64,000 bases of DNA from the NCBI GenBank assembly GCA_002794775.1, contig NBAY01000060.1, forward strand, positions 1 to 64,000. Reading direction: 5' to 3'. This DNA comes from Porodaedalea pini. Its lineage: Eukaryota; Basidiomycota; Agaricomycetes; Hymenochaetales; Hymenochaetaceae. Both the position numbers and the translations under genes were made by a program. Within the stretch, counting starts at the first letter, position 1. Each line of letters opens with the position of its first letter. The notes under the pieces were generated by a model. It was not told the origin of the DNA, did not search any database, and saw nothing but the letters and a program-made list of their open reading frames with translations. Positions 37,614 to 62,780 of this stretch are shown here, piece after piece.

Positions 37614-38902
37614 GAGGAAGCAAGCCCTACCAGGCTGCCCCTTGCACACCCTTGCATGCCATGTGCAGTTCACACACATCTCCTCAAGGGAGACTGGCAG
37701 TGGGCCCACCCAGCACAGACAACCAGTTGCCAGGTTGATCAGCTTGACCCCATTGAACATGGTGACCACTAGACCCAATGTACTGTTGGTACACCCTTCA
37801 TCTGCGTGGTGATATGTTGAACCACCAGCTCCTCCATCTGCCAGCTCCCAGTTCAGATTGACTCAAATGGGAGGCTCTTCAGCCTCCTCAACTGCCTGAT
37901 CCTAGCAATGTTCCACTCAGGTGGCACACGTGTTCTGTTCATGCAGCCAACACATTTCCTTGGCTTCCTCCCTCACCTGATCCTGAGCAGCTAACATGGC
38001 AGCGAGACCAGCCTTGTCTCATGCCCGCTGCTCTGCCTCTATCTCTGCTGTCACCTGCATCTTGTAGAACAAGCCCCCTGGCATGTAGGTGGGGAGCTCA
38101 TCTCCATTTAGGGTGCTCGCAGCAGCTTGTTGCTACTGCTGTTGTTGTGCCAGATTTGGGCATGGTACTGAGCACAGTACATGAGCATAGGGAGGAGGGA
38201 TCTCCTCCACATCTGACTCATCATTCTCAGGTGCATTCTTGACAGTGGTGCACCGCTGCTCCTCATGTGAGTCCACCTGCTGTTGGTGTTGGGCAGACAG
38301 AGTACTGATGGTATGTGACACATCAGGCTTTTCCTCTTCCTCCTCCTCACTCCCCTTGACTTCGCATGGACTGGTCTGCTGTTGCTGTTGTGCAGGTGCA
38401 GTACCATCAGTACACAGGACAGCAAGTCCCTCCTCCTCCTCCTCATTCTCATGCTCCTCAACCTTGGGCAGACCAGGCATTTTGAGATGTTCAGCAAATG
38501 CCTCAACCTCTGGTACAGCCAACAGGACCCTGACAATGCACGATTGCACCTTGTGCTCCATAGGGTAGACAAACTTATACCTGTACATGTCAGGCATGAG
38601 TATCCACTTGAGCCCTCCACCGATGTATGGTACATCATCCAGCCAGCCCACATCTGGTATGATGAATCCCTTGCCCTGGTATCTGGCAAGGTCCACCGTC
38701 TCATGGTCTGCAAAGAATTGGATGTAGAGGTGGTCCGTAGTAAGCTGGTCAAGCCCACCCAGCACCCACTACATCTCCTTCCAGACCCACATGACCAGCA
38801 GGTATGTGCACAGGTCAGTCGTGACCTAGTGATGCTTCCCCAGCACCACACAATCCCAGTAGAGCTAGTAGTAGCTCTCCAGGGTGTGCTGTATCGGTAT
38901 GG

Positions 38903-41553: not shown

Positions 41554-41694
41554 TCTCCTCGGGCGTTTTAAACAGTGACTGTCCCTAGTCACTCTGTCCT
41601 TCTGAATCCTCTTGTGTTCGTGGGATAAGGCGTCGTACATTGGCCTCGTGTGGTCCGCACCCTCTCTCTTACCGTCATCCATCACGACATCAAA
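41554..41694 (+). other. Family C PPT and antisense-gene leader
   Basis: TCTCCTCGGGCGTTTTAAAC and following bases match, in position and sequence, the minus-strand segment next to the B2 3' LTR (60863 downward). The reverse complement (GAGGAGA next to the LTR) is the likely polypurine tract. Confidence 0.6.
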
Positions 41695-42669: not shown

Positions 42670-43603
42670 TGTAGAGCCGTGCCAATTGTCCCATCACCAC
42701 CGATCACTCCAGAAGCATTCAAGAACTGGTTCTGATGCGTACTGATCAGTACCGGACTCAACCCGATCGGTCCGGTCTCGAATCAGAACCTCGCGATCGT
42801 GTCATCAGCACGTTCTGACACCTCCGAAAGCATACCGGAACGTACCGGAGATCTTATCTCAACAATTAGGGACGCGGTCACATGGAGCATACAGCCAAGA
42901 CGCGTACTGGACTGCTGTCCGACGACGGGAGCCATGTACCGATTGGACGATCTGAGTTCCGGTGGAGCACCGGTGTGATCGGACACAAAGCGGACGTTTT
43001 TCCTCATTATGATTTATGTTTTTCCTATGTTCTTCTGATTTCTATACACTCTATGCGCGCCTCTATGACCTATGACTTTTCCTTTCGACTTCTCTATGTT
43101 TCAACTGATATGCACAGTATGCCTGTATAGAAATTATTAACTGTAGATAGATCTTTGGACTTAGTATAAATATGCACCCCATGTCATAGGTAGGGGAGAA
43201 GTCAGTTCTACCGCAGAGTCTCCCTCAGATAGGGTAACTTGAGTGCGATCCATCCTAGTTCTCGTAATCTTGTAGTCATTCCGTCTTCGTCTTAGCATCT
43301 CATCTCTCGAAACCGTCTCTCGTCTCATACTTTGTAACTCGAACCTCATCGCTCGTCATGATCACATTGTACCGGTGTTGATTACCCGCACGTACTGACT
43401 CCGTACCGGTCAAACCACAGACGCGACAGGAGTTCCCGACCTTTGTTCTCGATATCGACACGTACCGGCGCGTACCGAAGCGTACCGACGCGTACCGGTA
43501 CGTCAAGTGATCTCACCACAGTCTACCCCTAACCTCCCAGAGCAACGCGATCACGTCCCCAAAAGGACTGTTGATCCCAGACACCCCTAAGTCAGGATCT
43601 ACA
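42670..43603 (+). repeat. 5' LTR of B2
   Basis: TGTAGAGCCGTGCC to GGATCTACA. TATAAATA at 43165-43172 is the likely promoter. U5 holds a CGTACCG-rich cluster (about 43459-43505). Differences from the 3' LTR are mostly CpG transitions. Confidence 0.92.
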
Positions 43604-43605
43604 AG

Positions 43606-43623: not shown

Positions 43624-45573
43624 GGTTAAACGTGTCGCGATCCTCACGTCCACCACGTTCGTCGCGTGGGACATCTCAGCAGACTATTGAACCCCCTCAT
43701 CTGTATTGAACCGCTAACGCTTGGCAGCGTAGACGCCGTATCGAAGAGCGCGCTACAGATTCGGATTCAGAGTCCGTAGAGTGTTACCTTGATTCAGACT
43801 TAGAACAACTTAACACGTCATTCAACTCTGGAGCGCAGTATCCCTTCTCATTAATCAGCTCGTCTGCAGTTCCGTCGACAGTCCCCTCAGCCCCGTCGAC
43901 TAGCTCGTCACCACTAACTGAGCTCGAGAGCGACAACCCAGACGATACTGCTCAGCTTGTCTTACCGGATCCTAGTTCGTCCGTACCGGGACAGATGTCT
44001 TCGCCTGTCGGTACGTCATCAGTTCCGTCAAACCCAGTTAACACACAGGCTACGCGGCCCCGGACATCGACTGTAGTAGCTCCGGTACAGCCAGTACCCC
44101 CAGTAAGAATCATGTCAAACCATCCTCCACGTCACGGAACCAGAGATGCTCCCTTCTTCGATGGACACAACCCATTAGACCTTCCTCGGTACTTCGAGGA
44201 TATCGAATATATCGTGACTGACTGCAACTTAGACGACATGGCGAAGATCCAGTACACGAAGTATTACGCTTCGAGTTCCGTAGCTGAGCTGTGGGATACC
44301 GCCGATGGTGTCGGTACAGGAGTGAACGATTGGACGAAGGCGAAAGAGGTGATTATAGCGTTCTACCCGGCATTGGCGCCTGGTGTGTGCTTCACCCGGG
44401 AAGACCTCGACAGGCTCGTCAAAGGTTGGAGGAGTAAAGGAATACAGTTGAGGGAGGATTTCGGAGAGTATAAGAGAGAGTTCATGGTGAGGTCGAAGTA
44501 TTTGGAATGTAACTCGATCGTTTCAGCGGAGGAAGCGGCACGCGTGTTCATTCGAGCCTTTACGGGCAAGATGAAGGACAGGTTACAGCAATGCCTAGAA
44601 ATGAAGGAGGCTGACCCGTCCCCGGGCAAACCATATACGATCGATTTGGTGGTAAAGCACGTGGACTACATCCTGGCCGGTACGGTTTTCAATGACGTAC
44701 CAACGACTCGAGCGCCCGACCTGACGAATCAGTCAAAGGTAAAGTCGGAGGAAGTGGATATCAGTACGGTGTGGGAAGCAGTCAAGAACATTCAGGTTCA
44801 GGTACAGTCACTCAGGCAAAGACCGCCGCCAGCAACGACGTCCCAGAGGAGTCCTGGGTGTGCGTTCTGTGGCGACACGAGCCACTACATTAGGTTGTGC
44901 CCAAAGGTGCTGGAGTATATCCAGGCAGGCAAGTGTGTGAGGGATGCAAACGGGAAGGTGACGCTACCGAACGGAGGGTTCATACCGAGCATGGCGGTGG
45001 GTAATAATTTGATGGAAAAGATAGACTCGTTGCGTCAGGAGACCAGTACGGCCTCGGTTAACCTCATAGAGGTGGCAATGTCGACAACAACGGGCACTGA
45101 AGTGTCAGAAGGTCCAGCGATGATGGCCAAAATTGCGGAGGAAGTATCGGACGAAGAGTTGGAAGTGGCGCAGTACGAAACGTTGTTGAACGAAGTGAAG
45201 AAGTGAGCGTCGGTGGCAAAGAAAGCCAAGTTTGATGGAGTCGAGATACCGGTACGACCGAAACCCGGTCCAGCGAATGTACCGACAACCTCGAATGCGA
45301 AACCGAGCATACCGAAGCCAGCGGGTAACCCGAACATTCTCCAGGAGAGCCGATCGATGACAAATTTGGGTGGGAACCAGCCACAGTTCTGGTACATTGC
45401 TCCAATCGAGGATCCGGCGACGGTTCAGAAGGTATTGTCAAGGACGTTAGACTCGGCGGTAACAGTCACACAGCAGGAGCTCCTCGCTCTGTCTTCGGAT
45501 ATGAGGCGGCAGATGAAGGAATTGACAACAGCGAAGTGGTACGTGGTCGGTAACGTCAACCTCGTCGAGTCGG

Positions 45574-46570: not shown

Positions 46571-47085
46571 TCGGACCAGGAAGGGAGCGAAGTCGCAGAG
46601 TACCGAGCGGTACCAGAGTCATTGGCTCCGGTTCTCTTAGAGTCGGGACCGGCGGCACACGACGTGCTTCCCATCCACGTAATTAAGGTATTGATCGAGG
46701 ATGCCGTCGAAGCAGAAGCCATACTCGATCAAGGGGCAGTGGTGTGCATCATTCGGGAAGACGTGTGGGAGAAGCTAGGAATTCATTTAGATCCGGATCA
46801 CGCAATGACACTCGAAGCCGCAGATGTGGGGAAGTCATCGACATTGGGAAGGATTTGAGATGCCAGATTCAGGGTAGCGGGTGTGGATTTGAAGTTGCAG
46901 GTTCAGGTGGTTTCGGTGGCGCCGTTTGAAGTATTGTTGGGGCAACCATTTTTCGCTCTTACCGAATGTGAAACAAAGGATTTCTTGTCGGGCGATCAGC
47001 ATATAACCATCACGGATCCCCGAGATCGGAATCGTAGGAGCAAGGTGTCGACCGGTATCCGGGCGTTCTGGCACGCTCCAGAATC

Positions 47086-47092
47086 GGGTTTT
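47086..47092 (+). other. -1 frameshift heptamer GGGTTTT (B2 PR/RT)
   Basis: In the Gag-PR frame it reads G-GGT-TTT. The RT frame is -1 and opens at 47038, giving a 73-nt overlap. The Gag-PR stop is 16 nt past the heptamer. B1 has AGGTTTT here, from CpG decay. Confidence 0.65.
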
Positions 47093-50000
47093 CACAAGTC
47101 GAGGAACTGACGCAGCGGTGCCGGCGAGACGAGTGGAAACAGATGGTATGTGAGATGTGCCGCGGAGTCGATCCATCGGTACGCGTACCGAGCTCATGTA
47201 CAGACGTTTTATCTTTGCGTTTTAATGACCCTGATTATTTATCTCGTCGTCCAACCCCTTCTCAAACCAAAATTAATTCTCAATTCGTTCAACCCATTTA
47301 CAGTTTTCAACAAATGTCCCCTAATGTTTTAAATCAATCCGATTCGACTATTTCCCGTTACGTTTCCCCAAGTTTTACCTTGAATACCCCAGCTCCGTTT
47401 ATTTATTCGCAGAGATTGAATTTTCTTTTATCTCCTTGCACCGTTGCTTTGGACACTTCTTCGGACACTTTTGGTTCGGTGGTGTTGGATTCGACGGAGG
47501 ATGAAGGAAGTGTTTTGGCGTACAAGCAGGTGGCGCAGAAGGTACGTCCTGTACCGGGAGTGTTACCGGAGGAGTTTCGTATAGTTCGAAGGCGACATCC
47601 CAATCCATTGGCCAACATGCCAAAGTTACCGACGAAACCGGTACCGTTCGTACCAACGGGAAAGTTTACACAGGAAAGGCTGGACGCGATGGATTTGGAC
47701 CCAGGCGGATTTCTGTGGAACAAAGAGAAGAAGTTGGTGGTGAATCTGATCATGTTGCAGGAAGGGGCATTTGCGTGGTCGGAGACGGAGAGAGGGACCT
47801 TAGATCCAACGTATTTCGACCCAGTACGCATACCGACGGTGGCGCATGTACCGTGGGTGCGGAAGAACATACCGATCCCCCCTGGGATACTCGAAAAGAC
47901 GCTAAACATACTCAGGGAGAAGATCACCGCCGGAGTTATCGAACCGTCAAACTCGTCGTACCGCTCGAGGTGGTTTTGTGTGGTAAAGAAGGACGGAGCA
48001 TCCTTACGGTTCGTTATCGACTTGCAGGATCTGAACGGAGTGACCATTCGAGACTCGGCCGTACCGCCAGACATAGAGACGCTTGTAGACGCGTGCAGCG
48101 GGCGCGCATGTTACACGGTACTTGATCTCGCTGTGGCTTTCGACCAGCGAATGCTCGACGAACGGTCCCGAGACTTAACGACGTTCCAGACCCCGCTCGG
48201 TACGTTTCGACTGAAGGTGTTACCGATGGGATACACGAATTCGCTGCAGATTCTCCATGGAGACGTCACGTTTATTCTCAGCGACGAAATTCCTAAGGTG
48301 GCGCAGCCGTTCGCGGACGATGTAATTACGCAAGGAGGGTTTACATGGTACGAGCGTACCGACGGAGGGTTTGAAACGATTCCCGAGAACCCGGGCATCT
48401 GCCGGTTCGTCTACAAACACTTGTGTGACGTAAATCGAGTGCTGCAGAGGATGAGGAAAGTGGGCGGTACATTTTCCGGGAAGAAATTCCAGGCGTGTAC
48501 CGATTTGGTGATATTTTTGGGGAATAAACTCACGTACTGAGGGCGCGAACCGGACGATTCGAAGGTTCAGAAGGTGCGGGATTGGCCCCCATGTCGAACA
48601 GTGACGGAGGTGAAAGGATTTCTCGGTATGGTTGGAGTGTTGAGGGTGTTTATTAAGGATTTCGCGAAGAAAGCTCGACCATTGACCCAACTTACGCGTA
48701 AAAACAACATATTCGATTGGGGACTGGAAGAGCAGGATTCGATGGACACGTTGAAGGAAGTGGTTATCGACTGCCTGGCACTGTGCGCGATCAACTACGG
48801 GTCAGACAGAGCGGTTATCTTAGCGGTGGATTTGTCGATCATAGGAGTAGGGTGGACGTTGGGCCAGGATCACCCAGACGGTAGGAGAAGGATTAATCGG
48901 TTCGGGTCGATCAACTGGAACTCGGTACAGGCGACGTACTCCCAGCCAAAGATCAAGTTGTTCAGGTTGTTTAGGGCATTGAGGGCGGTGAGGTTGTTTA
49001 TTTATGGAGTTAAGCTCCTGGTGGTTGAGATGGACGCAGCGTATGTCAAAGGGATGATTAACAATCCGGATCTACAGCCGAATGCGATGATAAACCGGTG
49101 GATTGCAGGAATTCTCCTTTTCGACTTCGAGCTTCGCCACGTACCGGCTGCGGAATTCACGTGTACTGACGGACTGTCGAGACGGCGAGCCGCACCAGGG
49201 GACCCCCAAGAAGAAGACGACTATGAAGAATGGATCGATGCAGCGTATGCGTTTTTGTATGGAGCGGTGTTGAGTACCGACGTCGAAGAAGGGTCTGGTA
49301 CAGCCACAGATCCTCAGGGGCAGCGATTCCCGGCCTCGGATTCGGTAAAGTCGCGAGATAAGCGATTAGAGTTGGTTCGGTACCTCCTCAAACATGGAAG
49401 GAAGCCCTCGGAGATCGACAAGAAGCGCTTTCCTTTGTTTGTCCGGTACACCTCCGGATTCTTCATGCGAGCAGGACGGCTTTGGCGAAAGACCCGACGA
49501 GAGCATCCCCAGCTGGTCGTCGAACAGGAACGCCGCTGGTCGCTTGTCCAGCAGGCTCACGACGATCTCGGACACAAGGGAGTGTATTCGGTACGCGCTG
49601 ATAATTCTGAGTTCCGGTTGTTAGTGAATAGGAATCAGATGATTGAGTTCGAGGGAGACGTGTCTAATGGGTCAATACCCTCGTTCCGGTCGAGTTCCGT
49701 GGGTTCCGGATTGCAGGATTCGGGTTGCGTGCGTTCCGGTGTGTCAGGGGCAATGGAATCGACGAAGCGTACTAATAGGGAAGTGTTCGAAGCGTAGCGC
49801 CGGCGGAGCGCTCGAGATGTGTGGGGGATCGTTGGTGGCTGTGTCGGAAGACACGGAGACGCGCTAATACTAACACGACTTTCTCGGAGCGGGATTGTCC
49901 TCGGGATGGACGGCTGGTCCCTGTGCTCAACAGACGTCGTCTGGAGTACCAGAGAGCGGGGCGAGATACGGGACTTAATTCAGAAGATAAGAGACGAGAG

Positions 50001-51817
50001 GGAGTCGAAGTCGAGATAACGAGAACGAAGCGAAACGAGGTAAGGACGGAACGGACGGAACGAGCGCAACGGGCGCAACGCGAATAAAACGAAGTCGAGG
50101 TGAGCGATTCGAGTCACTGAGGCACCGAGGCGTACCTAGAGACAGTCCTGAGAGATAGCACACAAAGTTAGGCGTCGAAACTCAGGGGTGGAATTGCTGT
50201 TCTATCTACAACATTCGATGCTCTATAAATACTAAACAAGTGTCCTGCGTAAACATGAAAGGTGAAATAAAATAAGACGAGTCCTCTATTGTCCTACCAC
50301 TGAGCCTCCTGAGTGTTTCCTTTGAGCGGCTCCACGATCCGAACTACTGAAAGGCGGGGACGGCGCGTGTTGACTTGGCGTAGCGTCGGTGAGCTTCGGG
50401 ATCCTTTGTACGGAGCCAGAACGACCAATGCCGGGCTGCCGCATGTTTGTTAGACAAAGGCAAATGAACGAACCTTTGGCAGGGTCGAGTGGACACGCGC
50501 ACAGATAAGTGCACCGGGGTCGGTCTGAGTAGCTGATGCGTGCGATCCGGCCGTTGCGTGCGTTCCGTGTTCGGGTAATCACCGCCGGCCCGGGTGTACC
50601 GCTTTGCTCAATTGCCGAGTCGAGGCTCTTCGACTTCGTGACGTACATCGCGTGCGTTCCACTCGTTCCGTGCCCAACGAACCGGTTGGTGTTACAGCGC
50701 TCGATTGCTGGACCGGTTTTGGTGGCCGTCGATTTCGGAGGATGTCAAATACTTTGTGCGTACGTGTCATATCTGTCAGGTGCGCCAGACCACAAAAGTG
50801 TCGATACCGCCATCGGTACCGGACGTACCGACGTTGTTCGCCCGGATCCACATCGACACGAAGCACATGCCCGCTTCAGGAGGCTTTCACTACATTGTAC
50901 ATGCGCGGTGCTCCTTGTCCAGTTACCCGGAGTTCCAACTGTTACGAAAGCAGACTGGTCACATGATCGGGCAGTTCATTTTTCAGGAATTACTGTGTCA
51001 GTACGGCGCGTGTCCCGAACTCGTTACCGATAACAGTACCCTGTTTATCGCTGCGCTTGATTGGTTGCGGGATCGGTACCACATTTCGCACATCAAGATC
51101 TCGGCGTATAATTCTCAGGCCAACGGGATCGTCGAATGATGGCATTACGATGTCCAGGAAGTCTTGATCAAGGCAGCCGACGGGAACGCATCCAAGTGGC
51201 ATGAGCACGCTTACTCGGTTTTCTGGGCCGAGCGTATCACAATCCAGAAATCGACCGGTATGTCGCCGTACTACATGGTTCATGGAGTCGAGCCGGTACT
51301 TCCCTTCGATCTCGCCGAGGCCACTTATCTTACTCCGCCGTTGGATTCCCCGATGCGTACCGAGGAACTGATAGCGACCCGGGCGCGCCAGTTACAGAAG
51401 CGTCTGGCGGACCTTGATAGGATCGCGCAGTTGGTTCAAGATGCTCGACACAAGTACGCTCGACAGTTCACTGAAGTCCATAAGCACGTCATCAAGGACT
51501 ACGATTTCCAGCCCGGTCGACTCGTACTTGTGCGGAACACCCGGATCGAAAAGGAGTTGGACCGAAAGACGAAGGCCCGGTACTTGGGACCGTACGTCAT
51601 CGTCCGTAGGACACGTTCCGGAGCGTATATCATCTCGGAACTCGATGGATCGGTTTCCCAGATTTGGATTGCAGCTTTTTGTCTCATTCCTTATTTTCCC
51701 CGATCTGACATTTCTGTTCCCCTTGACGAAATCCTTCGACAGGATGATGACGAACATAGCATGATGAAGGAAGATCTGGTAGAAGAAGACGGCTCTGAGT
51801 TGGACTCTGATACCTAG
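47093..51817 (+). pseudogene. pol: B2 RT-RNase H-integrase ORF, interrupted
   Basis: RT, RNase H and integrase of a Gypsy lineage distinct from family A. The RT keeps the SRWFCVVKKDG and LDLAVAFDQR blocks. Its catalytic motif is FADD (48310-48321) instead of Y-x-DD, as in other fungal Gypsy elements with F-x-DD. RNase H begins after TGA 48538-48540, shared with B1, and has VDLSIIGVGWTLGQ. Integrase HHCC is split by LTR-C (49599-50696) between the His pair (HDDLGHKG) and CHIC. DDE residues lie in HIDTKH, VTDNSTLF and QANGIVE, the last followed by TGA 51137-51139, also shared with B1. The C-terminus is acidic, with no chromodomain. Not translatable as it stands. Confidence 0.82.
49599..50696 (-). 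mobile_element. Solo LTR-C (1098 bp)
   Basis: Plus strand TGATAATTCTGAG to GGTGTTACA, perfect 4-bp duplication GCGC (49595-49598 and 50697-50700). Same length as the LTR-C at 40456-41553. It breaks the integrase zinc finger of B2. Confidence 0.9.
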
Positions 51818-52241
51818 TCGCGAATTCTGATTATGTTCGCCATCCAAGGTATCGGTATGCGTACCGATACGTACCGACGCCTCCTTATTTTATTATCTTT
51901 TAATCAATTATGATCCAATTATGTTTTAAACCATGGAACCGTTTACATTCTTTCATACGGAACTCTTTCTCGATTATTGAAACATTAAATATATGGCCTA
52001 TCTTTGATTTCCCTTTCGGTACAATAGTAAAATCACAAACGGACACTTAACGACGACCTTTCTGTTTCTTGTTCTCTTCGTCCTTTCATTTTTGTCACAC
52101 CCGAAAACTTAAAGAAAACAAAAGAAAAATCCATATTCAAAAATATATACAAATAAATTACTACACTTTGTATTATTTTTCTTTTTTTTCTTTTTCTTTC
52201 CGCAGGACCAAGTCGTACCGACGCATACCGACGCGTACCGA
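51818..52241. other. B2 spacer between convergent genes
   Basis: AT-rich, no ORF. Includes a T/C tract ending CTTTCCGCAGG (52176-52206), acceptor-like on the plus strand and conserved in B1, then CGTACCG-type repeats before the stop of the reverse-strand gene. Confidence 0.6.
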
Positions 52242-52872
52242 CTAGTCCTCCTCCTCCTCCCTTGCACCCCACTTCCCCTTCTCAAGCGCCGCAAGGCGTG
52301 CACGGATCGAGGCCGCTTCGGCCGCCTGACGAGTCGCCTCTGCAGTGAGTCGACGCAAGCTACGCTCGAGCTCGTGGACGTCACGCACGAGCTCCGCGAC
52401 GACGTGATCGAACTCGTCTTCGGAGTCGTGCTCTGAGACGAGCTCACGCGGGTCCTCGTATGCGCCGGCGAGCCGGCTTGGACCTGCGACGGGCAGCGAG
52501 GCAGCACGGCCCCTCTGTTGCTGCTGCTGCTGCCGCGGTACGCGTGCGGCAGCAGGCCTCGGTACGTGAGGCGGTGGGGATGGCGTGTCCACCATGATCG
52601 GAGAAGCCGGCGCAGGTGGCGCAGACGACGCAGACGGCTGCGGCTGTTGCTGCTGCTGTTGCTGCTGCTGCAGCTGCAGCTGCGGTGCTTTGGGCGCAGC
52701 GCGCGGTATGCCCTCGTCGCGGGCGGCGCGTTTCTGCTTTCCACCCGACTTTCTGCCCCGGACCTCCTTCGTGCGTCCCTGGGTTGCCAGCGAGCACCCC
52801 GTCTGCCAGACGACCGTGCAGAGGAAGCAAGCCCTACCGGGCTGCCCCTGACACGTTCTCCCCCGACGCGCG

Positions 52873-53295
52873 TGTTAGGCGGAAGCCCGGGAGACGACTC
52901 GGACTGGGCAGGCCTCGGCTGACTGTCGTCTGGGACGTGCTATACTCGAGCGTAGACTCGGGACACGCTTACTCAGGCTAGGTCGACGCGGAGGTAAGAG
53001 GATTAATACAAAACTAGACTAATACAAGGGGGACGAGTCTCACCTAGGTCGACGCGGAGGTAAGAGGAAAAGCAGAACAAGGAGTTCATGCGATTCCTGA
53101 GACCTTATATAGCGGCGACCGTGAGACTATATTACCTAACATTGCATAACGAGTGGGAATGGAACGAATGAAGGTCGTGTAGAGGGAGTGTGGGAAGTGA
53201 TTGGAAAGATGATTAAAGATAATGAAAAGGAGCAATTAACAGAAACGAAAAAGGAAAAGGGGAAATAAAGAAAAGGGGAAGTTCAAGTCCTGACA
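52873..53295 (-). repeat. 3' LTR of A5
   Basis: 423 bp, plus-strand TGTTAGGCGG to GTCCTGACA. The polypurine tract (plus-strand CCCCCCCTC at 53299-53307) adjoins it, and the pol stop TAA is at 53296-53298. Confidence 0.95.
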
Positions 53296-56200
53296 TTACC
53301 CCCCCCTCAAGGTTGGGTGTCCCGACCAACCAAGATCGCGGTCGTCTGGCTCGGTGTCGACGAAGAGCGGACGGAGTCGTGAGCGAGGGATATTGAGTTT
53401 GCGGGGAGCACCGGGGTGTTTGAGGTAGAATTCAGCAATTGCCTCCTTTGCGTTCTCGCCGAAGTCCGTCTCCGGTTGCCAGGTCGGTTCGTTGTACCCG
53501 ACCCACTTGACGAGGTACTGTAGTTTACCTCGGTGCAGACGTGAGTCAATGACGTCTTCAACCTCGTATTCCTCTTCGTTGTCGACGATTTCCGGTGGTG
53601 GCGGTGGCGGTAGCTTCTGGCTCTCAAACGACGGTTCAACGGCGGGTTTCAACAGGGCTTCGTTGAAGACAGGGTGGACCTTTTTCCATCGCTTCGGGAG
53701 TTTGAGCTTGTACGCGCTCGCTCCTACCTTGTCGACGACGTCAAAGGGGCCGTACCATTTGTCTGCAAGTTTCTTTGTCGGCGAGTCCGTACTAATGTTT
53801 CGCCCGTCAAGGAAGACCTTGTCGCCAGCCTTGTATTCCACCGATGTTCCTGCCGTCCGGTCATGGTAGCGTTTCATGTCTTCTGCTGCCTTGACCAGAT
53901 TGTCCCTTGCCGCGCGATGGGTCTCCTTGATGTGCTTCGCGAATTCTTCTGCCGACATGTTGGTAGAGGAAGTTCGTACGGCGTCGAAGCTCCTAGGGTG
54001 ACGTCCAGTGTTCGCGTAGAAGGGTGACATCTTTGTCGCCGAGTGTTCTCGGTTGTTGTAGGCGAACTCTGCGAGAGGGAGCCAGTCTTTCCAGTCTGAC
54101 TGCCGATGGTCAACGAAGAGCCGGAGGTACTGTTCGAGCTCTTGGTTGACGCGTTCCGTCTGACCGTCCGTTTGCGGGTGATACGCCGTCGACGGGTTGC
54201 CTTCGATGTGTAGGAGTTTGTACAGCTCCCTCATCATTGATGCGTCAAACTGCGTGCCTCGGTCATGGATGATCTTTTTTGGCAAGCCATGGAGACGGAA
54301 GACGTGGTCGCGGTACAGTTGAGCCATGCCTTCCGCTGACAATTTTGTCGTCGTCGGGATCGCGTGCATCTGTTTCGAGAACCTATCGACGAAAACGCAG
54401 ATTGCGTTGTGCCCCTTGGAGTCCGGGAGTTCTCCGATGAGGTCGACCGTGACAATTTCCCAGGGACCTTCAGGGACCGCGTTTGGATGAAGTGGCCTCG
54501 ACCTTGATGCCCTCAGAGCCTTCGTTCGTTGGCAGCGGTCACATCCTCGGACGTATGCTCGGACATCGGAGAACATCGACGCCCACCAGAAGTCTCGACG
54601 TACCAGTTCGACCGTCTTCGACGATCCCGGATGTCCTGCCAGGGTCGAGTCGTGGCACTCCCTCAACACCGCTTCCTTCATCGTCGTCGGCACGTACACC
54701 TTGCCTTTCATTCTCCACAACCCGTCGACTTCTACCATATTCGTCGGCCTTTCCGACTCGTCTTGTGCCCTCTGCGCTTCACCCACTCGTTCCAACACTT
54801 CATCCCGCGACGTCCTCACTATTCCACGATTCAACCACTTTTCCTTGATGAAGACGATGCCGTAGTTGTCATCCTGGCCCTTGTCGTAACCTGCCTTGCG
54901 CGATAATAGGTCCGCCTTGCCCATCGTCTTCCCCGACTTGTGTTCGAGGTGGAAGTCAAACTCTTCGAGTTCGGTTCGCCAGCGGGCTTGCCGGTAGCTC
55001 AGCTTCTGCGCTGACCTGAAGTAGGTGAGGTTAGCGTGGTCGGACCAGATTTCGATCGTGTGGCGAGCGCCGAGGAGGTATTGTCGCCATTCCTTGAGCG
55101 CCGAAACGATCGCGAGCATCTCCTTGTCGTAGATCTCGTAGTTTCGTTCAGCGGGTAGGAGCGCTTCTGACCTATAGGCAATCACCCTCCACTTCCCTTC
55201 CTGTTTTTGCAACAACACACCGCCGAGCGCAAAGTTTGACGAGTCCGCTTCTACGCGGAAAGGACCCTCGTCGTTGGCGATGGCTAGGACTGGAGGTGAG
55301 CAGAGACGTCGTCTCAGCTCCTCGAACGCTTTCTGCTGTTCGGTCTCCCATACCCAGTCCTTCTTGCCCGTTAACGACGTCAGCGGATGGACCACCTTAC
55401 TGTAGTCCTTGATGAACCGTCGTAGCCAGTTACCCATGCCGAGGAATTGTTGTAGCTGTTTCAGGTTTCGTGGGACCGGCCAGTTCGCAATCGCCTCCGT
55501 CTTTGCTGGGTCAGCCTTGATCTCGCCATTACCGATGATGTGGCCGAGGTATTTGACGATCTTGGCGTCAAATTCGCACTTCTCCGGTTTCAGGTACAGG
55601 CCATTCTCTCGCAGGATCTGAAGGACGCGCCTCGACGTGTCTATATGTTCCTCAATGGTCTCCGAGAGGATCAATATGTCGTCGAGGTATACGATGATCA
55701 GGTTAGCGTAAATCAGTTCCTTGAAGATGTGATTGACAAAAGCCTGGAACGTTGCCGGGGCGTTGCAGAGACCAAAGAACATGACCGTCGGTTCGAATAG
55801 GCCCATGTTTGTGCGAAACGCTGCTTTCCATTCGTCACCCTCGCGGATCCGGATATTGTAGTACCCCCAGCGAAGGTCAAGCTTAGTGATGTACTTCGCT
55901 TTCTTGACCTTGTCGACGAGTTCGTCAATGAGAGGGAGGGGATACTTGTTCTTGATCGTACCGTCATTGAGCTTACGGTAATCCTGGATCGGGCGTAGCG
56001 ATTTGTCGGCCTTCTTGACGAAGAAGAAGGGCGACGCCATGGGCGATATCGACCGTCGAATGCGACCCGACTTCAAGTTTTCATCGAGGAAGTCCTTGAG
56101 TGACTGTTGCTCTGTTGGCGTGAGCGGGTAGATTTTACAGTCACTTGGTTTGAAGTCGGGCTTCAAGTCGATGACGTGGTCCCACGGTCGGTGTTCCGGT

Positions 56201-56940
56201 AGCTTTTCGAAGCCTTTTTCGCTAAAGACGTCGGCGTAGTCGTTGAGGTATGCGGGCCAGGACTCCTTGTCCATTCGCACCTCTCTCACCCTCCTCGTCT
56301 CCTCTGCTGCTCTCCACACCCTCTGCATACCTTCCTCGTCGTCCTTCTCTACCACGCATTCACCTGGACAGCGAGTAAAGTCGAGTGTCCCCGTCTTCCA
56401 GTTGACCTCTGGATTGTGTCGTCGAAGCCAGTCGTACCCCAGGAAGATGTTAGAAGACGCCAATGAGGTTACTGCCAGGACGATCTGTTCCTTATGATGA
56501 CCGATCGTGAGTTCAACGTCAACGTATTCCTCGATCAACCCAGCTTCGTTGTGCGTGCCGTCGGCATTGAGCACCGCAAGGGGTCGGATATACCGCTTCG
56601 TTTCTAGCCCATACCGTTCGACGAACCTCACGTCGATGCACGATCCTGTACATCCCGAGTCCACGAGTGCGTGAGCGTCTACCTCCCTCACTTCACCTTT
56701 CACACTGTGTCCGACGTTCAGGAGAAGGTCCAGCTGGCGTCCGCCAGTTCCTCTCATGAACAACTGCTCGTACCCTTCACTTCTTTTCACACCGGTGGGG
56801 ACTTCATACTCCGGAGAACCATCGACGTCGTTCGCATCTACGTGTTGTACAGACGGTTGGTTATATTTTAACGAGTCCGGATTCAAAGTCCCTTGTTCTT
56901 CCCGGTCAGTCGCCCCGATGGCTACGCCTGACCACTCGCA
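53296..56940 (-). CDS. pol: A5 Pol polyprotein with chromodomain
   Basis: Entered by -1 frameshift at the heptamer (plus-strand 56940-56946). The first in-frame ATG, 56886, gives 1196 residues. Order as in A3: protease (DSG near residue 77), RT with YLDD (near 55690), RNase H (near 55250-54890), integrase zinc region with GCDRCQRTK (near 54540), DDE core (VTVDLIGELP, IHDRGTQFD, NQELEQYLR), a basic C-terminal domain, and a chromodomain with YLVKWVGYNEPTWQP (near 53520-53470). No stop or shift was found. A3 and A5 Pol are close homologues differing at scattered residues, so both derive from recently active sources. Confidence 0.94.
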   Translation of the reverse strand, partial: CEWSGVAIGATDREEQGTLNPDSLKYNQPSVQHVDANDVDGSPEYEVPTGVKRSEGYEQLFMRGTGGRQLDLLLNVGHSVKGEVREVDAHALVDSGCTGSCIDVRFVERYGLETKRYIRPLAVLNADGTHNEAGLIEEYVDVELTIGHHKEQIVLAVTSLASSNIFLGYDWLRRHNPEVNWKTGTLDFTRCPGECVVEKDDEEGMQRVWRAAEETRRVREVRMDKESWPAYLNDYADVFSEKGFEKLPEHRPWDHVIDLKPDFKPSDCKIYPLTPTEQQSLKDFLDENLKSGRIRRSISPMASPFFFVKKADKSLRPIQDYRKLNDGTIKNKYPLPLIDELVDKVKKAKYITKLDLRWGYYNIRIREGDEWKAAFRTNMGLFEPTVMFFGLCNAPATFQAFVNHIFKELIYANLIIVYLDDILILSETIEEHIDTSRRVLQILRENGLYLKPEKCEFDAKIVKYLGHIIGNGEIKADPAKTEAIANWPVPRNLKQLQQFLGMGNWLRRFIKDYSKVVHPLTSLTGKKDWVWETEQQKAFEELRRRLCSPPVLAIANDEGPFRVEADSSNFALGGVLLQKQEGKWRVIAYRSEALLPAERNYEIYDKEMLAIVSALKEWRQYLLGARHTIEIWSDHANLTYFRSAQKLSYRQARWRTELEEFDFHLEHKSGKTMGKADLLSRKAGYDKGQDDNYGIVFIKEKWLNRGIVRTSRDEVLERVGEAQRAQDESERPTNMVEVDGLWRMKGKVYVPTTMKEAVLRECHDSTLAGHPGSSKTVELVRRDFWWASMFSDVRAYVRGCDRCQRTKALRASRSRPLHPNAVPEGPWEIVTVDLIGELPDSKGHNAICVFVDRFSKQMHAIPTTTKLSAEGMAQLYRDHVFRLHGLPKKIIHDRGTQFDASMMRELYKLLHIEGNPSTAYHPQTDGQTERVNQELEQYLRLFVDHRQSDWKDWLPLAEFAYNNREHSATKMSPFYANTGRHPRSFDAVRTSSTNMSAEEFAKHIKETHRAARDNLVKAAEDMKRYHDRTAGTSVEYKAGDKVFLDGRNISTDSPTKKLADKWYGPFDVVDKVGASAYKLKLPKRWKKVHPVFNEALLKPAVEPSFESQKLPPPPPPEIVDNEEEYEVEDVIDSRLHRGKLQYLVKWVGYNEPTWQPETDFGENAKEAIAEFYLKHPGAPRKLNIPRSRLRPLFVDTEPDDRDLGWSGHPTLRGG

Positions 56941-58001
56941 AAACCCTGCGAGTCAACGACCTCTTCGTCATTCTCTCCTTCCTCCACATAGTCCTCCACC
57001 GTCGACCTCCGAGTGTCTACGACTTCCTCGAAGGCTGACTCCTTCATCGCTCCGAGCTCGTCGGCGAGGATGCGGCGTTCGCCAGGGGCCATCAGTTCCA
57101 GCATACGCTGGATAATCGGTTTCCCCTGCGGGCACCTGTCCTTGAAGTGGCCTTCTTGACCACAGATCCAGCAAGCCCTTCTGCGACGTGCCTCGTTCAT
57201 AGAGACGTCCATCGGTTGTCCGATACCTCCGAACGTGACGCCGGTCGCGTCGCGTTTGTCGACATGCGGGGTTGCAACTTGGCGCCGAGCGGGGGGTGCC
57301 GGTTGTTGTTGGCGAGGTTGCGGTATGAACGGGCGGCCTCGTTGAATCGCGCGGATCTGCTGTTCTCCGCGATCGATCTCGATAGCTTTGTTCTTCCACG
57401 CCTCATACGTTGTTGGTACGGGCGTCGACCTCAGCACGCCGCGGACTACCTCGATGTTCATTGCTCGCTTGAGGCGGTCGCAGATAACGCTGTCGTCTTT
57501 CAGTTCCGCCCGCTTGATGATGACGTCAAGTTGTTGGAAGAACTTATCCGCGGTGAGGTCCTTCTGAACCTTCTCCCGGAAATCCTTCAGCGCAGCTTCC
57601 TTTCGGTTTGGATCGTCGAACGAGGCGTCGAGTCGTTCCTGGAATCTTTCCCAGCTGTCCGTGAAGGTAACGATTCCCGCCGTTGTCGACTCCTCGACGT
57701 AGTTCTGCGCCCACGTTGCCGCATTACCACCCTTCAGGTAGGAGAGAGCTACGTAGATCTTACTCTCCGACGTAGGGTATCGGCTTGGGTTCGCGGACAC
57801 GAAAAGAAGGACTTCGCGTCTGAAGTCAAGGTAATCGTCGCCACCAGTGAATTCACGTGGTCGGGCGACGTCTATGTTGGGGGTCGGGGGGTTAGCGGCC
57901 GCGACCGGCGCTGGGGCGTTGTTCGCCTGATGGGCGAAGGCATTTGCAATGATGGCCGCGATCTGCGCCATTTGCTGTTGGCTGAAACCTTCTGCTGACA
58001 T
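56922..58001 (-). CDS. gag: A5 Gag (359 aa)
   Basis: ATG at 58001 (MSAEGFSQQQM), TAG at 56922. Contains FTGGDDYLDFRREVLLF, a capsid-like helical region, and the CCHC knuckle CWICGQEGHFKDRC (near 57165-57125). Same length as A3 Gag. The frame is also open upstream of the ATG as far as about 58345, with amino-acid-level conservation, so the true N-terminus may be longer. An 852-nt open frame on the plus strand across this gene is a shadow. Confidence 0.92.
   Translation of the reverse strand: MSAEGFSQQQMAQIAAIIANAFAHQANNAPAPVAAANPPTPNIDVARPREFTGGDDYLDFRREVLLFVSANPSRYPTSESKIYVALSYLKGGNAATWAQNYVEESTTAGIVTFTDSWERFQERLDASFDDPNRKEAALKDFREKVQKDLTADKFFQQLDVIIKRAELKDDSVICDRLKRAMNIEVVRGVLRSTPVPTTYEAWKNKAIEIDRGEQQIRAIQRGRPFIPQPRQQQPAPPARRQVATPHVDKRDATGVTFGGIGQPMDVSMNEARRRRACWICGQEGHFKDRCPQGKPIIQRMLELMAPGERRILADELGAMKESAFEEVVDTRRSTVEDYVEEGENDEEVVDSQGFASGQA
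56940..56946 (-). other. -1 frameshift heptamer (A5 gag/pol)
   Basis: Minus-strand GGGTTTT, reading G-GGT-TTT in the Gag frame. The Gag stop lies 16 nt downstream. Confidence 0.7.
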
Positions 58002-58705
58002 CGCGGGTTCGGGTGTTGAAGGTTCTGGGGGAGTCGGCGGTGAGGGATCTCTGTTGGTCTCGCGGTAAGGACCCGGAGTCGGTGGTAGGTTAACTGTAGA
58101 TGTTGACGGTGCGGGTGACGATGGGGTAGCTGGAGGCCACCTTGCTCTCCTTCCTCGTTCGTCTGACGAATACCAGCCGTTCCGGATTTCACTCCACCAG
58201 ATGTCGTGAGTGACGCCGCTGTTATTGGTCGCGACGTAGCCTGGTCGATCTGGATCCCAACGGGCTGAGGCAGGAAGGGCCCGTCGCTGTTCGTCGGTGA
58301 GATCTATCTTGACGTTGGTGGTGGGACAGGGATCGGTTGCGTGTTCGATCCGGGGTTACGCCAACGTTGAGCGGGTTCGTCAGCAAAGTTGATGACGAGG
58401 CGGTAGGATCCGAGTGAGATTACAAACGAGATTGTCGTCGAAGTTTGGACTCGTCTGGTTACCCACGTCCACGTTAGGTGCGTGCTCCACCAGAGGCTAA
58501 TTCGTAGAGCCAGGGTCGGAAGATGTCGGTTGATATGTTTACGTAATACACGAACGTCCGAAAACGTCCGGGCAGGGTTGAGGGTTGTCGTTCAGGGGGT
58601 TTACACGTCAAATCCGTCGAGGGGAGCGCTCCTCTAGACTGAGTGAAGGCGAGTCGACAGCGACGACGTACGCTGGGGATGAGCCTGGGTGGGGTTCTGC
58701 TTTTA
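58002..58705 (-). other. A5 leader with primer site and conserved upstream frame
   Basis: AAAAGCAGAAC primer site is the complement of 58694-58704, one base from the LTR. A frame without ATG is open 58591-58304, and its codons differ from A1 mainly at synonymous positions (for example AGC versus TCT for Ser). GTAACC at 58359 and ATAG ending at 58304 would form a 56-nt intron joining this frame to the gag frame in phase. Confidence 0.55.
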
Positions 58706-59128
58706 TGTTAGGCGGAAGCCCGGGAGACGACTCGGACTGGGCAGGCCTCGGCTGACTGTCGTCTGGGACGTGCTATACTCGAGCGTAGACTCGGGACACG
58801 CTTACTCAGGCTAGGTCGACGCGGAGGTAAGAGGATTAATACAAAACTAGACTAATACAAGGGGGACGAGTCTCACCTAGGTCGACGCGGAGGTAAGAGG
58901 AAAAGCAGAACAAGGAGTTCATGCGATTCCTGAGACCTTATATAGCGGCGACCGTGAGACTATATTACCTAACATTGCATAACGAGTGGGAATGGAACGA
59001 ATGAAGGTCGTGTAGAGGGAGTGTGGGAAGTGATTGGAAAGATGATTAAAGATAATGAAAAGGAGCAATTAACAGAAACGAAAAAGGAAAAGGGGAAATA
59101 AAGAAAAGGGGAAGTTCAAGTCCTGACA
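58706..59128 (-). repeat. 5' LTR of A5
   Basis: 423 bp, identical to the 3' LTR by eye. Minus-strand TATATAA at 58944-58938 and predicted start GTTCTGCTTTT at 58911-58901, again 33 bases apart. Confidence 0.95.
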
Positions 59129-60356
59129 GCGCGCAGTTGGCGCACGCCTCCTTGAGAGGGACCGGCAGCGGTCCCGCCCACCGTAGACAACCGGTCGCCG
59201 GGTTGACCAGTTCGACCCCGTCGAACATGGTGACCGAGGGACCCAACGTACCGTCGGTACGCCCTTCGTCTGCGTGGTGGTATGACAAACCACCAGCCTC
59301 TGCCTCCATCGATACGGGGGCGGGCTCAGCTGGAGCGAGACGCCCCTCCACCTCTTCGACTGGCGGCTCCCGGCGTTGCTTCATGCGAGGGCCCCCACGA
59401 CCTCGCTCACGCGCTCGACGCGGGCCTCCTCCACTCTCCCGATGACCACACGCACGCGCCTGACGCATCGCTTCCGCCTGCTTCCGAGCCTCTTCCTGAG
59501 CGGCTAACATGGCAGCGAGACCGGCTTCGTCTCACGCCCGCTGCTCGGCTTCGTGCTCCGCAGCCGCCTCCATCTCAAAGAATAGTCCCCCAGGCGCATT
59601 CGCTGGGGGCGGGACACTTGACGCTGCGCTCGGCGCGGGTTGTTGCTGCTGCTGTTGCCGCAGCGGCTCCTCGCGTTGTCCGGTATGCGTTCCCTCCTCG
59701 TCGTCAGACGCGATCTCGACGGTCGTACGCCATCGCCACTTGTCGGCACCCGTCTGCTGTTGCTGTTGTGCTGACGGGGCGTCACCGGTACGCGGTACGC
59801 TGGACCTCTCCTCGCGCATCGCGCTCGCCTCGACTTCGCGTGGACCCGTCTGCTGTTGCTGTTGCGCAGACGCGGTACCGTCGGTATGTGGGACGGCGCG
59901 CTCCTCCTCCTCATTCACGACCTCCTCGACCTCGGGCAGACCAGGCGTTTCGAGACGTTCGACGAACGCCTCGACTGCCGGTACAGCCGACGGGACCCTG
60001 ACGAAGCGCGGTTGCGCCTCACGCTCCACGGGGTAGACAAACTTATACCCGTACCCGTCAGGTATGAGTACGCGCTCGAGCTCTCCGCCGATGTACGGTA
60101 CGTCGTCCAGCCAGTCCGCAACCGGTACGACGAATCCCTCACCCCGGTACTTGGTGAGGTCGACCGTCTGGTGGTCAGCGAAATACTGACCGTAGAGCTG
60201 GTCAGCGGTGGACTTGTCGAGCCCATCCAGCGCCCACCGCATCTCCTTCCAGACCCGCACGACCTGGAGGTACGTCCGCAGATCGGACGCGATCAGGTGG
60301 CGGTTCGCCGGCACCGCGGAGTCCCAGTAGAGCTGGTAGTAGCTCTCCAGGGTGCG

Positions 60357-60411
60357 CTATTTCAAATCGGTCAGCTCGGTACGCGTGCTTGATCAAGTTT
60401 CGAGGACTCAC
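60357..60411 (-). other. Predicted 55-nt intron (B2 antisense gene)
   Basis: Donor GTGAGT directly after an AAG codon, branch-like GCTGAC 15 nt before the acceptor AATAG. Phase 0; splicing joins YGTK to RTLESYY. It is read from the strand opposite to the genomic RNA of the element, so it would not be spliced out of that RNA. Confidence 0.7.
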
Positions 60412-60702
60412 CTTCGTGCCGTATGCCCACTCGGCCCACTTCCATCGTTTGCCGATCTCGCGACCCCGACTCCCCGCCAGTAACGTCTCCCGCCGTTTCA
60501 CGTACCGCCCGAGGCGGCGTCGCACGTACCGGTCAATGTTGACCAGCCGTTGCTCGATCTCGCGGGTGTCCCACGTGATCCTCTCGCGCTTGATGGCGCC
60601 GACGTTGTTGATGTACCCCAGTACGCGGGGTGCCTTGCGCGCCAGCCGAGGCGGCGCCGTGCTGTTGCTGTTGCTGCTGCTGTCGCGGTGCGGAGATGAC
60701 AT

Positions 60703-60863
60703 GGTCGGAAGAAGCAGGAGAAAAACCCGTCGGTACGACCACTTTTCCAACGCCCTCTCTAGTGTGTTCCGATGCGCATGATCAGCGTGATCAAGCTTCT
60801 CGCGTGTATCAGAAGAAGAGAAGGCGTGACTGGGGACAGTCACAATTTAAACGCCCCGGGAGA
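60703..60863 (-). other. Leader of antisense gene / B2 PPT region
   Basis: Between the antisense ATG and the 3' LTR. The 50 bp next to the LTR match the family C segment at 41554-41600. GGGAGA against the LTR is the likely polypurine tract of B2 in plus sense. The same DNA thus serves plus-strand priming and the 5' leader of the antisense gene. Confidence 0.55.
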
Positions 60864-61796
60864 TGTAGAGCCATGCTGATCGCCCCATCACCGCCGATCA
60901 CTCCAGAAGCATTCAAGAACTGGTTCCGATGCGTACCGATCAGTACTGGACTCAACCCAATCGGTCCGGTCTCGAATCAGAACCTCGCGATCGCGTCATC
61001 AGCACGTTCCGACACCTCCAAAAGCATACCGGAATGTACCGGAGATCTTATCTCGACGATTAGGGACGCGGTCACATGGAGCATACAGCCAAGACGCGTA
61101 CCGGACTGCTGTCCGACGACGGGAGCCACGTACCGATTGGACAATCTGAGTTCCGGTGGAGCACCGGTGTGATCGGACACAAAGCGGATGTTTTCCTCAT
61201 TATGATTTATGTTTTTCCTATGTTCTTCTGATTTCTATGCACTCTATGCGCGCCTCTATGACCTATGACTTTTCCTTTCAACTCCTCTATGTTTCGACTG
61301 ATATGCACAGTATGCCCGTATGGAAATTATTAACTGTAGATAGATCTTTGGACTTAGTATAAATATGCACCCCATGTCGTAGGTAGAGGACAAGTCAGTT
61401 CTACCGCAGAGTCTCCCTCAGATAGGGTAACTTGAGTGCGATCCGTCTTTGTTCTCGTAATCTTGTAGTCGTTCCGTCTTCATCTTAGCAGCTCGTCTTT
61501 CAAAACCGTCTCTCGTCTCATACTTCGTAACTCGAATCTCGCCACTCGTCATGATCACATCGTACCGGTGTTGATAACCCGCGCGTACCGACTCTGTGCC
61601 AGTCAAACCACAGACGCGACAGGAGTTCCCAACCCTTGTTCTCGATATTGACATGTACCGGCGCATACCGAAGCGTACCGACGTGTACTGGTACGTCGAG
61701 TGATCTCACCGCAGTCTACCCCTAACCTCCCAGAGCAACGCGATCACGTCCCCAAAAGGACTGTTGATCCCAGACACCCCTAAGTCAGGATCTACA
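60864..61796 (+). repeat. 3' LTR of B2
   Basis: 933 bp, TGTAGAGCCATGCTG to GGATCTACA. Followed directly by family A gag sequence (A6). Confidence 0.92.
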
Positions 61797-62780
61797 ACGC
61801 AAACCTCGAATGCTCCGCCCCCCAACATTGACGTTGCCCGGCCACACAAATTCACTGGCGGTGATGATTACCTTGACTTCAAGCGCGAAGTTCTACTCTT
61901 CGTATCGGCAAACCCCACGAGGTACCCCTCGTCGTTGAGCAAGATCTACGTCGCACTCTCCTATCTCAAGGGTGGCAACGTGTCGACGTGGGTGCAGAAT
62001 TACGTTCAGGAGTTCACGACGAATGGCGTTGTGAGCTTCACAGATAGCTGGACAAGGTTCCAGGAATGACTGGATGCATCCTTCGATGACCCGAACAGAA
62101 AGGAGAAGGCGTTGAAGAAGTTCCAAGAAAAGATCCAGAAGGACCTCTCTGCTGATGAGTTCTTCCAAGACCTTGACGTAATCATCAAAGCGGCAGAGCT
62201 AATGGACGATGGTGTCATCTGCGATCGCCTAAAGCACGCAATGAACATCGAAGTAGTCCGTGGAGTGCTAAGGTCGACGCCAGTCCCAACGAAGTACGAA
62301 GACTGGAAAAAGAAGGCCGTCGAAATCGATCGTGGCGAACAGCAGATCTGCACCATCCAACGAGGCCGTGCACTACCCCCCATGCACCCACAGCAACAGC
62401 AGGTGCCGCCCATCCGTTGTCCATTCGCAGCCCCTCACGTCGACAAGTGCGATGTGACTGGCGTCACCTTTGGAGGTGCTGGTCAGCCAATGGACGTCTC
62501 GATGAACGAAGTGCAACAACGACGTGCGTGCTGGATTTGCGGCGGGCTGGACCACTTTAAGAGCAAGTGCCCGCAGGGGAAGCCGATCATCCAGCGCATG
62601 CTGGAACTGATGGTGCCAGGCAAACGTTGTATCCTCGCCGATGAGCTCGGCGCAATGAAGGAATCGGCATTCGAGGAAGTCATAGACACTTGAAGGTCGA
62701 CTGTGGAAGACTATGTGGAGGAAGAAGACAACGACGAAGAGGTCGTCGACTCGCAGGGTTTTGCGAAGGGTCAGGCGTAG
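61797..62780 (+). pseudogene. A6 Gag, 5'-truncated and broken
   Basis: Begins at the residues before PPNIDVARPHKFTGGDDYLDF. TGA near 62067-62069 and near 62691-62693 interrupt it, and TAG 62778-62780 ends it. The CCHC is altered: CWICGGLDHFKSKC keeps Cys, Cys, His and Cys. Heptamer GGGTTTT at 62756-62762 is kept. Confidence 0.82.

Follow-up and report, generated by a model that had tools for sequence, protein, structure and literature searches.

The window analysed here, 64,000 nucleotides of the basidiomycete Porodaedalea pini (GenBank assembly GCA_002794775.1, contig NBAY01000060.1, positions 1 to 64,000), contains a Gypsy retrotransposon of family B, termed B2, whose two long terminal repeats (LTRs) are 93.6% identical and which carries a long, intron-containing gene antisense to gag and pol. 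The whole antisense gene of B2 runs from 60702 to 52242 on the minus strand, between the stop of pol (51817) and the 3′ LTR; its ATG lies 161 nt from that LTR, the presumed source of antisense transcription. The predicted product has a cysteine cluster with Zn2Cys6-type spacing, and the element is densely marked by a short word, CGGTAC or its complement GTACCG, called the tag below. The features of B2, and the remains of the same gene in a second copy, B1, are as follows.

42670..43604, plus strand: 5′ LTR of B2, with a tag array of 10-bp spacing at 43462-43501
43710..45206, plus strand: gag of B2, an open reading frame (ORF) that aligns with gag of other copies
46571..51817, plus strand: protease-to-integrase (pol) part of B2, ORFs with an RVT_1 match
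51818..52241, no strand: gap between the converging stops of pol and the antisense gene, with tag sites at 51861, 51871, 52017, 52215 and 52235
52242..52872, minus strand: last part of antisense exon 2 and stop, encoding the rest of the zinc cluster, a Gln/Pro-rich stretch and a helical tail
52794..52853, minus strand: third to sixth cluster cysteines (C-x7-C-x2-C-x7-C)
52873..59128, minus strand: nested element A5, interrupting the antisense gene inside the zinc cluster
59129..60356, minus strand: first part of antisense exon 2, with a TGA at 59534-59532
59133..59144, minus strand: first two cluster cysteines (CANC)
60357..60411, minus strand: antisense intron, 55 nt, GTGAGT...TAG
60412..60702, minus strand: antisense exon 1, 97 codons, ATG at 60702
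60814..60867, no strand: LTR-edge block, found in copy L014 and placed in the window by homology
60864..61797, plus strand: 3′ LTR of B2, with 8 tag sites
37614..38890, minus strand: decayed first part of exon 2 in B1, by homology to B2
29906..30452, minus strand: decayed last part of exon 2 in B1, by homology to B2

Several lines of evidence show that the antisense gene is real. The genome of the same organism (53.27 Mb in 201 contigs) gave 81 matches to the N-terminal part of the gene, and 20 loci of 10 kb each were fetched by them. Both gene halves are present in the same order in 18 of the 20, contiguous where nothing has inserted; L011 and L012 show the N half only within the 10 kb taken. 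Within that span the gene, antisense to gag-pol, is flanked by both the pol end and the 3′ LTR in 13 copies, by pol only in two (L009, L013), by the LTR only in four (L010, L011, L012, L021) and by neither in one (L027). Counted from the pol side, 32 of 38 B-type pol places (identity at least 74%, split copies merged, from 63 scored of 1,403 candidates) have the gene downstream on the opposite strand within 25 kb, two of them by exon 1 only, and 10 of the 42 gene places entered lack a listed pol. The antisense ORF is therefore present in most B copies, and it is conserved. Six of the 20 fetched copies keep the ATG, the intron and all codons (714, 714, 714, 711, 705 and 708), and the same 55-nt intron recurs wherever both exon borders could be mapped. 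Across exon 2 these six copies are free of stops in the antisense frame, whereas the five remaining frames hold 3-18 apiece, which excludes a chance open frame. Adding four copies with 1-3 stops gave a ten-copy alignment in which length differences are whole codons and all six cluster cysteines are invariant; the other ten (L009-L013, L015, L017, L021, L024, L027) were left out for inserts, frameshifts or missing starts.

The original prediction had described about 714 codons in B2 once A5 and a 55-nt intron were removed, with a single in-frame TGA, and the same gene in the same place in B1; each of these points was confirmed. The codon aligned with the TGA reads Arg in five of the ten copies, Gln in two, Glu in one and stop in two. 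An ancestral stop, or a division into two separate genes, at this position was rejected on that count, and since eight of ten copies encode an amino acid there, the TGA is a decayed codon. The first block of B1 contains 8 in-frame stops (counted by eye in the translation), and no match to exon 1 was seen in that copy. A5 entered B2 between the second and third cysteine codons; its 423-nt LTRs are 100% identical, CGCGC is read on each flank, and it is younger than its host element.

Selection on the antisense frame has to be read against strong CpG decay. Over the 45 pairwise comparisons of the ten copies, which are not independent, most differences are CpG losses, with 8,277 of CpG type against 2,135 others. 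Outside CpG the ratio of nonsynonymous to synonymous change, pN/pS, comes to 0.37 for the full set of pairs and to 0.34-0.38 for those between distant groups, not near 1. Under a null in which every difference was relocated to a random site sharing its three-base context (five pairs, 271 differences), synonymous changes in the antisense frame number 126 where 79 are expected (z +7.0). Four of the other frames are negative, and the opposite frame that shares its wobble position scores +4.6, and 15 of the changes there create or remove a stop, the pattern expected of a shadow; pol shows a like shadow, z +6.3 beside +10.9 in a sum that includes the frameshift-spoiled L018 row. CpG-type changes favour the antisense frame weakly and equally with its shadow (z +3.2 each). 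A plus-strand gene was considered as the cause of the conservation and ruled out, because each opposite-strand frame of exon 2 carries 6-12 stops in the six copies; selection on the plus strand thus does not explain the similarity between copies. For pol itself pN/pS is 0.07-0.08 in three usable pairs, the L018 row being set aside for its frameshift and L023/L016 having only 3 non-CpG differences. The antisense gene therefore evolves faster than pol yet is constrained, most clearly from residue 361 onward (pN/pS 0.10-0.31). Regional values for the N half (0.76-1.68) were not used, since very few synonymous changes fall there and many at residues 411-495. This unevenness, a roughly tenfold difference between codons 99-240 (mean 1.1 synonymous changes per pair) and codons 411-495 (12.2), makes recombination between subfamilies likely and suggests that B subfamilies have exchanged parts of the gene.

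The cysteine spacing places the product among probable DNA-binding zinc-cluster proteins. Zn_clus (PF00172) follows the rule C-x2-C-x6-C-x5..12-C-x2-C-x6..8-C, and the gaps in B, 2, 6, 7, 2, 7, conform to it. Predicted structures have low mean confidence (predicted local distance difference test, pLDDT, 38.8 for the B protein and 48.8 for its counterpart in the sister family B′), with confident blocks (pLDDT 79-87) only in the tail helix of B′. No homologue of the B N-terminal part or of the B′ protein appeared among about 7,990 candidates each from a large protein set, a weak search whose candidate lists were probably filled via low-complexity words; the B′ protein had no match among solved structures, no match was found in viral contigs, and the antisense proteins scanned had no dioxygenase match. 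The gene may have been captured from a host, a suggestion on which only these weak protein searches bear. Elsewhere in the genome, repeated and equal-scoring Zn_clus matches above the Pfam cut-off occur at C64:151287, C64:155563 and C88:374 and at C44:322601 and C136:56732, and may mark additional mobile elements that encode a zinc cluster.

The gene extends beyond family B. A pol search recovered B, then family B′ at 63-71% identity, then more distant families at 48-51%, and the DNA downstream of pol was read at 12 sister loci (L029, L030, L032-L041). An antisense zinc-cluster ORF is present in 11 of the 12, whose pol is 48-71% identical to that of B, and ten of the 11 retain all six cysteines, L034 having lost one; the twelfth, L029, has only about 280 nt after pol before another element begins. 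At L029 (C13:502300-506800) the B′ pol is nested inside gag of a B element, which in turn adjoins a frame that we take, by its likeness, for the endonuclease of a long interspersed nuclear element (LINE). The clusters read CDQCLMRGIECTGTPGKACTSCRRLRIRC in B′ (gaps 2, 6, 7, 2, 6), CDTCIVAGASCDGVPKSRRCTRCLWNKARC in C (2, 6, 8, 2, 6) and CDACVETGIPCIRIPNEGPCLRCKSSHLAGC in D (2, 6, 8, 2, 7; one locus, L035). In B′ a short first exon precedes, with an intron read as 51 nt, GTGAGT...TAG; in C, 24 of 71 genome matches begin at residue 1 or 2 and continue stop-free to residue 254 (counted by hand), and the zinc exon has pN/pS 0.14-0.35 and z +10.1 over four pairs. BLASTP, with E-values that refer to single comparisons, aligns B with B′ from cluster to tail (63 of 219 residues, E 1e-17), B′ with C (6e-5) and C with D (8e-11). 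The A elements, a different Gypsy family that is also present in the window, served as a control: their pol abuts the LTR (53296 beside 53295), leaving no room between for such a gene. The counterparts in B′, C and D imply that the antisense gene is old in this Gypsy lineage. The accessory gene had been predicted as a stable possession of family B; its frame, intron and cysteines are indeed kept, and it reaches beyond B, three more Gypsy families having a counterpart. The named relatives by pol belong to Rhodofomes, Candolleomyces, Leucocoprinus, Pleurotus and Hypsizygus, all of them Agaricomycetes.

B and B′ also share a 54-nt block at the LTR edge (84% identity), with an inverted repeat, GTGACTGGGGACAGTCAC, in L014. 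Beyond it, blastn of the B and B′ downstream parts gave no further match of similar length, and the C and D loci have no inverted repeat like it at the corresponding place. The block may be a primer site for plus-strand synthesis, part of an antisense promoter, or both.

The candidate target of the protein emerged from word counts. In the B LTR, CGGTACG occurs 7 times where 0.2 are expected by chance, and in the 10 kb of L014 the tag is the top word (80 against 7 in dinucleotide shuffles). Its density is 6.4/kb in six B loci, 0.28 in B′, 0.76 in C, 0.53 in D and 0.20 in four A copies; within the window B2 has 75 sites in about 11.8 kb and A5 has 2. The tag is thus a short motif strongly concentrated in family B and scarce outside it; taken singly, CGGTACG shows no genome-wide excess (6,327 against 7,778 for the reversed control; 0.12/kb). 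Sites occur in all parts of B, at 6.2-10.1/kb in gag, reverse transcriptase (RT) and pol and 10.7/kb in the LTR, and the coding parts together use all three phases. CGGTACG is balanced between the strands of L014 as a whole (25:25) and skewed in single parts (9:1 in the LTR, 2:12 in the antisense exon). Shuffles among synonymous codons, 300 for each part, gave 2.35 tags for the 17 observed in pol, 2.36 for 10 in RT and 3.8 for 14 in the antisense exon, none reaching the observed count; gag has 7 against 2.9 (5 of 300 reach it). As controls, A5 pol has 2 tags against 2.5 shuffled and C pol none. Since the counts exceed those of synonymous shuffles, the tag is selected or driven at the level of DNA.

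B′ has a tag of its own, CGGAAC, at 4.0/kb; the longer form CGGAACG reaches 2.4/kb against 0.28 in B and 0.24 in A. Synonymous shuffles are again exceeded in B′ pol (7 against 2.5; 2 of 300) and in the B′ antisense exon (3 against 0.7; 8 of 300). This tag is not confined to B′, as a gag fragment from a further Gypsy copy, L045, also has it repeatedly (8 in 1.3 kb, 1.1 expected). Tags in the same orientation form pairs. Neighbours at 9-11 bp number 11 in B, 8 of them at 10 bp, against 1.1 after jittering (0 of 2,000), and B′ has 5 pairs at 9 bp in each of L038 and L041 and 1 in each of L039 and L040. The geometry is that of a direct repeat, CGG-N7-CGG in B and CGG-N6-CGG in B′, and a count over the whole genome gives 180 and 240 occurrences of the paired patterns against 0 and 1 for reversed controls, with varying spacer letters. 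Nothing strong was seen in the CGG-pair geometry of C, D or A5.

One locus rich in tags but absent from the pol list turned out to be an element related to B, L044 (C1:540400-545700), with LTRs 97.9% identical, a gag at about 82% DNA identity to that of B, and the LTR-edge block. Compared by blastn with L014 and the window, L044 has no match to pol or the antisense gene; its interior consists of degenerate repeats, and the element has 56 tags in total where 2.55 are expected. At least 1,900 of the 2,001 interior bases are matched by eight copies, L044 included. A derivative that has shed the genes and multiplied the tag is to be expected if the tag works in cis and is served by trans-acting factors, and L044 is suggestive as a natural control for such service; it is not proof, since gag is kept. 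The 2,001-base interior is identical at L044 and C154:37236-39236, either a very recent copy or an assembly duplicate, and on the minus strand of L044 (1219-2754) it is open as a 511-residue frame of degenerate YRxVPE-like peptide repeats. Lone LTRs of the L044 family lie in the window at 35012-35909 and 392-1288 (95-96% and 85% identical).

Other insertions surround and divide B2. B′ pieces, an LTR and a decayed B′ antisense gene (from 41921), occupy 40464-42715 and adjoin the 5′ LTR; pol is disrupted by stops and by a solitary B′ LTR at 49593-50696. An insert of about 1 kb (45572-46570) separates gag from pol and is 98% identical over 193 nt to sequence adjoining gag of L045; it is probably a lone LTR of that family.

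Taken together, the observations are best accommodated by an old accessory gene of this Gypsy lineage whose zinc-cluster product reads the tag and acts in trans to relieve silencing, a reading that we favour tentatively and to which we give slightly less than an even chance. Antisense transcription would begin at the 3′ LTR end, and the conserved intron points to a single splicing event. Because splicing of the sense genomic RNA does not see an antisense intron, its persistence through rounds of retrotransposition is as expected. The product would be a Zn2Cys6-type protein, its cluster evident from spacing and its zinc binding expected by analogy, that may pair via the helical tail. CGG repeats are classical zinc-cluster sites, and the enrichment of CGG tags along the B and B′ elements is consistent with each protein recognising its own tag and acting in trans on its own element's copies. 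The regulatory role that had been proposed as a possibility is probably correct, given an accessory gene kept under purifying selection outside CpG. The most likely outcome would be that host silencing is lifted in a sequence-specific way and transcription controlled as well, as VANC proteins do for VANDAL transposons (compared below); relief of silencing is favoured because the tag spans the whole element, CpG decay in the copies is strong, and VANC is a precedent.

Several results weigh against this reading. The Pfam cut-off for Zn_clus (21 bits) is not reached: the profile search returned 10.5-10.6 bits for one of two B′ and both C proteins, while the scanned B and D proteins gave none. The longer B′ exon is weakly constrained (pN/pS 0.30-0.61, z +2.0, six pairs), below the z +2.7 of its opposite wobble frame. 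When all CGG triplets are counted, the N7 spacing is outside the top five in B, N6 being first in B′ (11 against 3.2). No enriched word of comparable strength was found in C or D, though both have the gene, and the first cluster loops of C and D (IVAGAS, VETGIP) are without the basic residues of the B loop, ARRGRT. Sparing of tag CpGs was looked for and not seen (decay 0.190 against 0.198 for others), and the pol-less derivative retains gag, so Gag could read the tag.

Some of these results suit a rival account in which integrase, Gag or a host factor reads the tag, or the tag is mutational in origin, and the antisense protein does something else, for example as a nucleic-acid chaperone. The presence of the gene in C and D with no tag to be seen, the pol-less derivative with gag and tags and no antisense gene, and the CGGAAC repeats in the L045 gag piece all fit that account; the strand symmetry of the tag favours reading of DNA over RNA, direct CGG repeats suit a zinc cluster, and the varied spacer letters argue against simple duplication. 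We regard this account as rather unlikely, if a serious contender. Slightly less probable in our judgement is a regulator acting at the LTRs only, in the manner of the antisense protein HBZ, which would set the balance of sense and antisense transcription or enforce latency while tags in the body are incidental or put to other use. The gene does adjoin the 3′ LTR, its product has a helical tail, the LTR contains tag arrays, and HBZ and related antisense proteins are described as acting on their own LTRs (PMC10186651); yet tags are dense in RT and pol too, where they exceed synonymous shuffles. That the antisense RNA matters and the protein does not, for instance through small RNAs against the element, has been proposed for plant antisense ORFs in the account of PMC7264820, but constraint at the amino-acid level and length changes in whole codons make this highly improbable here. 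Least probable, to the point of being negligible, is a chance or decaying frame without function: many copies are broken, B2 and B1 among them, but the context-preserving z-score, the six uninterrupted copies and the counterparts in sister families speak for maintenance.

The tag-reading interpretation can be stated more broadly as a retrotransposon lineage that recognises itself, in which an antisense zinc-cluster protein would read the tag, protein and tag would diverge together between sister families, pol-less derivatives would exploit the tag by amplifying it, and VANC and VANDAL would be an independent counterpart. We put this forward with more reserve, as a possibility somewhat short of even. 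If true, it would show a retrotransposon acting in trans on its own copies only, parasitism by non-autonomous copies, and co-evolution of protein and target. The coding DNA of a mobile element can, on this evidence, carry a second, DNA-level signal.

Known systems offer partial parallels. Among plant Gypsy elements, Retand TRP28, Grande gene23 and RIRE2 are described with antisense ORFs between pol and the 3′ LTR, the Grande protein being nuclear and DNA binding being predicted for TRP28 (PMC11963269, PMC7264820). They resemble the B gene in place, strand and retention in most family copies, TRP28 being likened to it by description and not by sequence; they differ in kingdom and in that B has a Zn2Cys6-spaced cluster and a family DNA tag. 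Nearer in host is brtn, the antisense gene of Boty-like Gypsy elements of Botrytis (PMC7264820 and PMC8365987, citing Zhao 2011), which is likewise fungal and between pol and the 3′ LTR, compared by description only, and has an ascomycete host. HBZ of human T-lymphotropic virus 1 (HTLV-1) is likewise encoded antisense at the 3′ LTR, has a tail that dimerises and acts as a regulator, but it is a basic leucine zipper protein, with no zinc cluster and no self-tag described in the part of the source available (PMC10186651). Zn2Cys6 transcription factors such as AOD2 and AOD5 share the cysteine spacing with B, and CGG-N7-CGG is a known zinc-cluster site (PMC5295593); they are host genes, whereas none of the clusters of B, B′, C and D reaches the Pfam cut-off. 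The TET/JBP dioxygenases carried by fungal DNA transposons are likewise proposed to let mobile elements escape methylation silencing (PMC12730594), but are enzymes and belong to DNA transposons.

A parallel in working is VANC21 of Arabidopsis VANDAL elements, which are dense in a family motif (PMC5735166; see also PMC10398659). Both systems pair an element-encoded DNA-binding protein, in B a putative one, with a short motif that is abundant throughout the element's family, differs between relatives and is arrayed in one orientation. VANDALs, by contrast, are DNA transposons with sense genes and a mainly noncoding motif, whereas the B tag fills coding DNA too, and VANC proteins as described (DUF1985, DUF287) are unrelated. 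The antisense proteins scanned had no Pfam match above cut-off, and so none to VANC domains; the likeness is therefore one of working only, not of membership. Among titles and abstract openings, which covered few subscription papers, we found no zinc-cluster antisense gene or family tag in a fungal Gypsy element. The function of Gypsy antisense genes is described as unknown in the sources available (PMC7264820, PMC11963269); here such a gene comes with candidates for both its DNA-binding domain and its DNA target, which reduces the question of function to a simple binding assay. Antisense genes at this place are known from plant Gypsy elements and from the Boty elements of Botrytis.

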